Program-made: the position numbers and the translations under genes
Assembly (NCBI GenBank): GCA_019359725.1
Contig: JAHHGR010000005.1
Span: 32,067-96,066 of the forward strand
Reading direction: 5' to 3'
DNA from: Aphanocapsa lilacina HA4352-LM1
GTDB taxonomy: Bacteria > Cyanobacteriota > Cyanobacteriia > Gloeobacterales > Gloeobacteraceae
Length of the DNA: 64,000 nucleotides
Notes under the pieces: model-generated
Told to the model about the DNA's origin: nothing
Database searches by the model: none
Seen by the model: only the letters and a program-made list of their open reading frames with translations
In this document: positions 50,160 through 57,692 of the stretch, one piece after another
Layout of the letters: every line of letters starts with the position of its first letter
How positions within the stretch are numbered: the first letter of the stretch is position 1

Positions 50160-50173
50160 AACCCGAGTTGGCT

Positions 50174-50929
50174 TCAGCGCTCAGGCGCACCCGGAAATTC
50201 CGCAAGCTGCCTGTCGGTGCGCACGGCTCGATCGAGCGCGCGCAACGGTGCCACGGCAACCGCGACACAGCGGGTGTCGGCGGCTTCCTCGCGGCATTCG
50301 GCCGGAAACGGAACGTAGCACAGGTGCCGCTCGCTCGACATGAGATTGCATTGGGCTGCGTCGGTGTGGGTAAAGCCGAGGGCGTGGCCGACGGCGTGCA
50401 TCAAGGCCGTGCGCAGGGCAAATTCGTCGGACGGAGAACCTGAGCGCGAGAGCACCAGCTCGATGAGCCCGGAGCGCCGGTAGCGGCCGATGACCGTCTC
50501 GACCTGCCCCGCAGCGGCGGCAAGCGGCGGTTGGTGGAGGACCTCGACCACCAGTTGCGCCTGCGCCCGGTCTGTTACAAAAGTAAACAGCCCCGCCCCC
50601 AACAACAACCCGGTCTGCGGCTCCGCCACCTGCTTGCGCAAAATCACCAAGACCTGTTCGGCAGAACCTTTACTGGGGGCTGCAAGCACCACGCTCACCC
50701 AGTCGAGAAATCCCTGCCGCAGCATCGCCAGCGTCGATTCAGCAAGCGCCTCGCCCGGATGGTCGCCAAAGGCTGCGTGGCGCGCCTGCGGTTCGATGTA
50801 CACCCGCACCGGAAACCCGCTACGCTCCCCTGCCGCAACAGACGGCGCCGAACCTACCCAGAGCGCTAGCAGCAGCGCTGCCACTTGCAGAAGTGGCGAT
50901 AAAACTCTACTGGTGATGCCCATGGCCAA
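50174..50929 (-). CDS. Matrixin-like secreted zincin, probably inactive
   Basis: Signal peptide; LMHAVGHALGFTHTDAAQCNLM is HxxxHxxGxxH plus Met-turn, but Ala replaces the catalytic Glu. Confidence 0.75.
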   Translation of the reverse strand: MAMGITSRVLSPLLQVAALLLALWVGSAPSVAAGERSGFPVRVYIEPQARHAAFGDHPGEALAESTLAMLRQGFLDWVSVVLAAPSKGSAEQVLVILRKQVAEPQTGLLLGAGLFTFVTDRAQAQLVVEVLHQPPLAAAAGQVETVIGRYRRSGLIELVLSRSGSPSDEFALRTALMHAVGHALGFTHTDAAQCNLMSSERHLCYVPFPAECREEAADTRCVAVAVAPLRALDRAVRTDRQLAEFPGAPER

Positions 50930-50975: not shown

Positions 50976-51119
50976 TCAAATCAGATAGTACATTTTGTTG
51001 AGAACGGTAAAGGCCGCCAGGGCGATGAGCAGGACGAAGCCGAGCAGCTCGGCGAAGTGCAGGCGCACGGCTTCGCCGAAGTTGGCCGGTTTTTGGTGTT
51101 CGTGGGCTGGTTTGCTCAT
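50976..51119 (-). CDS. Small single-TM protein (47 aa)
   Basis: Reverse translation MSKPAHEHQKPANFGEAVRLHFAELLGFVLLIALAAFTVLNKMYYLI*; directly downstream of the efflux adaptor; absent from ORF track (below size cutoff). Confidence 0.65.
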   Translation of the reverse strand: MSKPAHEHQKPANFGEAVRLHFAELLGFVLLIALAAFTVLNKMYYLI

Positions 51120-51137
51120 GGTGGATCTTCTCGTGAA

Positions 51138-57467: not shown

Positions 57468-57692
57468 ACCCGCTCCTGCTAAATTTTGGCTTGGGAAAGC
57501 ATACCGCATTCGCTGTTTGTTCGGCACATGAATTTTTTAAAGTAAAGTATGTTTGCTGCCCAAATGCCTGTAAAACAACTGCTCTGTATAAAATGCTACT
57601 TTCTTAAGCAAAATCAGGGCGGCATCGGCCGAGACGAAAATACCAGTCAATTTCCCTGTGCAGCTTCGCCGAAAGCGGCTGATCCGGATGCG

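Follow-up and report, generated by a model that had tools for sequence, protein, structure and literature searches.

A conserved pseudo-matrixin of Aphanocapsa lilacina with intact zinc ligands and no catalytic glutamate

Introduction

The metzincin pseudoproteases covered in a review of the subject are animal ADAMs (PMC11266112). In ADAM7 (HQLGH) and ADAM29 (HHLGH) the general base has been lost whilst all three histidines are retained (PMC11266112). A search of one literature collection for bacterial pseudo-matrixins found no paper, and in one survey sequences without HExxH were discarded (PMC12587646).

The protein considered here, P0001, is encoded in a 64,000-nucleotide stretch of the Aphanocapsa lilacina HA4352-LM1 genome (the window). 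It is a real, conserved pseudo-matrixin, for which a function other than catalysis may be inferred. With the matrixins (MEROPS M10A; karilysin, MMPs) it shares the HxxGHxxGxxH spacing, the Met-turn methionine and a modelled metzincin fold; its three zinc ligands are present in three species. It differs from them in having alanine in place of the catalytic glutamate, in lacking a pro-domain and in scoring below the PF00413 gathering cut-off, and no HGD-type structural-zinc motif is seen in its sequence. P0001 also resembles the pseudo-metzincin ADAMs, amongst them UNC-71 (QSIGH), in having lost the general base and kept the Met-turn. Unlike these, it is bacterial, single-domain and matrixin-like, its glutamate is replaced by alanine and it has no disintegrin domain.

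The gene and its product

The reading frame is open throughout. The ATG is the likely start and is followed by a hydrophobic stretch resembling a signal peptide (Table 1). The architecture is simple: a probable signal peptide and one matrixin-like metzincin domain. According to the translation, no pro-domain is present, the signal peptide running straight into the domain. The TonB_C-like C-terminal domain found in related proteins is also absent from P0001, and the short gap to mnmE leaves no room for it.

Table 1. Features of the P0001 locus (window coordinates; residues are counted from the TTG at 50929)
Feature	Position	Strand	Remark
Open reading frame	50174..50929	(-)	251 aa
Secreted pseudo-matrixin P0001	50174..50923	(-)	ATG start (50923); TTG 50929 also possible; 249-251 aa
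Probable signal peptide MGITSRVL...SVAA	50831..50923	(-)	inference read from translation
HAVGHALGFTH	50366..50398	(-)	zinc ligands H178, H182, H188 retained
Catalytic E179 replaced by Ala	GCC 50393..50395	(-)	
Met-turn CNLM, C194-M197	50339..50350	(-)	conserved across family
Four family-invariant Cys: C194, C204, C212, C221	50267..50350	(-)	invariant alignment columns; probable disulfides
Gap from P0001 end to convergent mnmE	50160..50173		14 bases

The active-site substitution

A preliminary description of this DNA had recognised the degenerate matrixin motif and placed it at 50380-50430. The motif is real, albeit slightly misplaced, as that interval covers its first half together with bases upstream. 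The same description read the protein as a pseudoprotease. Orthologues of P0001 are found in two sister species (genomes G001 and G003; the window genome is G000) at 88 and 90% identity, with conserved gene order. All three proteins are of equal length without indels. The sister motifs are HAVGHALGFAH and HAVGHVLGFAH, so that neither orthologue has the normal HExxH that might have spoken against the reading, and no other glutamate aligns with the catalytic position. All three species encode the alanine by GCC, and two substitutions separate this codon from GAA or GAG. This bears out the argument that more than one base change lies between it and a glutamate codon; the shared codon excludes a sequencing error.

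The zinc ligands H178, H182 and H188 and the motif glycine G181 are kept in all three species, in agreement with the preliminary description, and the methionine of the proposed Met-turn, M197, stands in a nearly invariant column of the family. As the sister species are close, invariance of the ligands among the three is weak evidence taken alone. Nine homologues (L004-L007 and L009-L013) have the normal motif, HE(I/V/L/M)(G/A)H, and 41 alignment columns are conserved in at least eight of these nine. All three orthologues keep 32 of them, including H178, H182, H188, M197, the four cysteines and both motif glycines, G181 among them. Only two columns which are invariant in the nine active homologues have changed in all three orthologues, giving E179A and D125Q.

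Family membership and fold

Taken singly, the sequence of P0001 is weak evidence for membership of the matrixins. The search of matrixin models proposed in the preliminary description did return PF00413, with an E-value of 0.019 and a score of 15.3 bits against a cut-off of 24; some of the HExxH homologues pass the gathering score. A profile of the P0001 family has strong matches in eight of the nine genomes of the order. The AlphaFold2 model of the domain (pLDDT 82, pTM 0.83) finds karilysin and other metzincins as its best PDB matches in Foldseek (E 1e-3, probability up to 1.00), albeit with low TM-scores to metzincins (at most 0.50 among the best matches). The predicted fold therefore supports the metzincin class of P0001 and not the details of its structure. 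Family profile and predicted fold together rule out a chance occurrence of the motif.

The HExxH homologues belong to the Gloeobacterales and share with P0001 the same domain, the four cysteines and CN(L/V)(M/L). They differ from it in having HExxH and, in the seven scanned against Pfam, 1-5 TonB_C-like (TonB_2) stretches alongside the matrixin similarity. The nearest protein that is not an orthologue, from G002, is 49% identical, carries HEIGHALGLAH with a GAG glutamate codon and has a TonB_2 match just under the cut-off. The other eight come from G002, G004, G005, G007 and G008. One of these proteins (L011:64-2241, (-)) has an unusual architecture, in which five TonB_2-like repeats come after an active-type matrixin.

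Since the more distant homologues have both HExxH and TonB_C-like domains, the P0001 lineage appears to have lost the glutamate and the TonB_C-like part. In the tree, the three orthologues form a clade with the active G002 homologue (support 100/99). The stem of the pseudo lineage is longer (0.98 versus 0.36), yet Tajima relative-rate tests are not significant (p 0.06-1.0) and do not support accelerated evolution of this lineage. A second degenerate member in G007 (L008:778-2247, (-)) has the motif NQLGRVMGLPQ and keeps two TonB_2 repeats. As it lies outside the clade of the trio and the G002 protein, at least two losses are indicated. Judged from the sequences, inactive copies arose repeatedly in the family.

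Zinc-free relatives and range

Further inactive relatives are present in the window genome. The family profile finds L028 (QLLGRSLGLPS, contig C48) and the FQLGR proteins L029 (contig C45) and L030 (contig C1); L084 (contig C5) was recovered with L029 as the query. These four are secreted relatives with pseudo-matrixin domains in which QLLGR or FQLGR replaces the zinc ligands. They belong to a set of secreted paralogues, apparently limited to the Gloeobacteraceae, whose motif is mostly FQLGRxLGL. The FQLGR proteins (L029, L030, L084 and relatives) are like P0001 in having a homologous domain that has lost active-site residues. They differ in having no histidine ligands and in possessing an N-terminal stretch before the domain, TonB_C-like where this is detectable. 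Among the four relatives, the TonB_2 match of this stretch is clear in the QLLGR protein L028 (1.2e-13) and weak or absent in L029, L030 and L084. Alignment of the FQLGR set with the P0001 family by hhalign gives 98.2% with an E-value of 3.4e-14. The AlphaFold2 model of L029 (pLDDT 69) matches MMPs with a probability of 1.00 and a TM-score of about 0.5 of the target. The L028 orthologue in G001 (L095, G001:C1:751991-752943) is apparently split between frames.

Neither the window genome (about 95% complete) nor G001 (a single contig) nor G003 yielded an HExxH member of the P0001 family, although HExxH matrixins of other subfamilies are present. The order is represented by nine genomes, and in scans of the class and phylum strong full-domain matches were confined to it, those elsewhere being weak and partial. 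Among 390 genomes of the class, full-length profile matches to the FQLGR set were restricted to the family of the window organism, the Gloeobacteraceae. Two wider scans of genome contigs, in which records near the window genome may have been left out, gave no confirmed relative outside the order.

Gene neighbourhood and constraint

Immediately upstream of P0001, on the same strand, are the genes for an RND adaptor, an outer-membrane factor and a 47-aa protein, and this order is conserved in the two sister species. Together with the three retained zinc ligands, this arrangement would suit a periplasmic zinc-binding or buffering protein working with the adjacent RND/CusB-type efflux genes, its zinc site serving metal handling. 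However, the adaptor has no recognised pump gene beside it. Furthermore, in G002 the adaptor and 47-aa genes have no adjoining P0001 homologue, the G002 homologue lying elsewhere, so that the neighbourhood is not established as ancestral. A role in metal handling is accordingly unlikely. The 47-aa protein, which follows the adaptor at approximately 50976-51120 (-), is membrane-like; it is identical in the two sisters and 58% identical in G002.

The otherwise intact zinc site might also be taken to mean that P0001 retains some slow or altered hydrolase activity, the water being activated by another residue, as certain supposed pseudoenzymes have proved to be active (PMC11266112). Against this, no newly conserved acid lies beside the site, the pair D168/E169 being present in the nearest active homologue as well. 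Replacement of this glutamate by alanine is the standard inactivating mutation in metzincins and counts against residual hydrolysis, which is quite improbable here.

The dN/dS of P0001 is 0.24-0.34 among the three orthologues, whilst the values for neighbouring genes lie between 0.04 and 0.32, most of them below that of P0001, and constraint is thus moderate. An open reading frame at 57546, with dN/dS of 0.8-1.2, is probably spurious. P0001 is retained under purifying selection, constrained but not strongly. That the gene is merely decaying, the glutamate and TonB_C part having gone once the protease was no longer needed, would fit the missing domain, the dN/dS above that of most neighbours and the split related locus in G001, but is very unlikely given a frame open in three species without indels, dN below dS in every codon bootstrap (dN at or above dS in 0 of 300 for each pair) and, in two of the three comparisons, stronger constraint on the core than on the signal and tail.

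A probable pseudoprotease that may bind without cutting

P0001 is probably a matrixin-type metzincin, secreted to the periplasm, which has become a pseudoprotease; it is possibly zinc-loaded and may bind without cutting. The preliminary description came to the same pseudoprotease reading, and it is upheld by the alanine in three species, the normal HE in nine homologues and the purifying selection. The missing TonB_C-like part and the recurrent losses in the family were beyond its view. Replacement of the general-base glutamate of HExGHxxGxxH by alanine would have preceded the divergence of the window species from its two sisters, as would the loss of the C-terminal TonB_C-like domain present in the HExxH homologues. 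Without its general base the protein would be expected not to hydrolyse peptides, whilst binding of zinc would still be possible; with all ligands and the Met-turn kept, it is plausible. Because the histidine ligands, Met-turn and disulfide framework are kept, the fold of P0001 is most likely still built around a zinc ion.

Loss of the general base under purifying selection points to a non-catalytic role. Binding of a peptide or protein, for which there are precedents among the ADAMs, would be the simplest such role, although as the function of P0001 this is a guess. The partner might be held, uncut, by the zinc-bearing cleft or by the cysteine-stabilised C-terminal subdomain. As for the inhibitory role raised in the preliminary description, an active protein of the P0001 family is an unlikely target, no such member having been found in the window genome or the sister genomes.

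Surveys which filter on HExxH, as in PMC12587646, would miss proteins of this kind. More tentatively, the Gloeobacterales lineage may have turned a secreted, TonB_C-linked matrixin into non-catalytic periplasmic binding domains, zinc-retaining in P0001 and zinc-free in the FQLGR and QLLGR proteins. Three genomes would then have lost the active form and would use the metzincin fold purely as a binding module; this is possible, albeit not the likelier outcome. P0001 is a bacterial, single-domain protein in which the ligands are kept and the general base alone is replaced, and its order also contains active homologues and relatives that are zinc-free. This natural series of active, base-less and zinc-less forms allows the role of the metzincin fold without catalysis to be asked.
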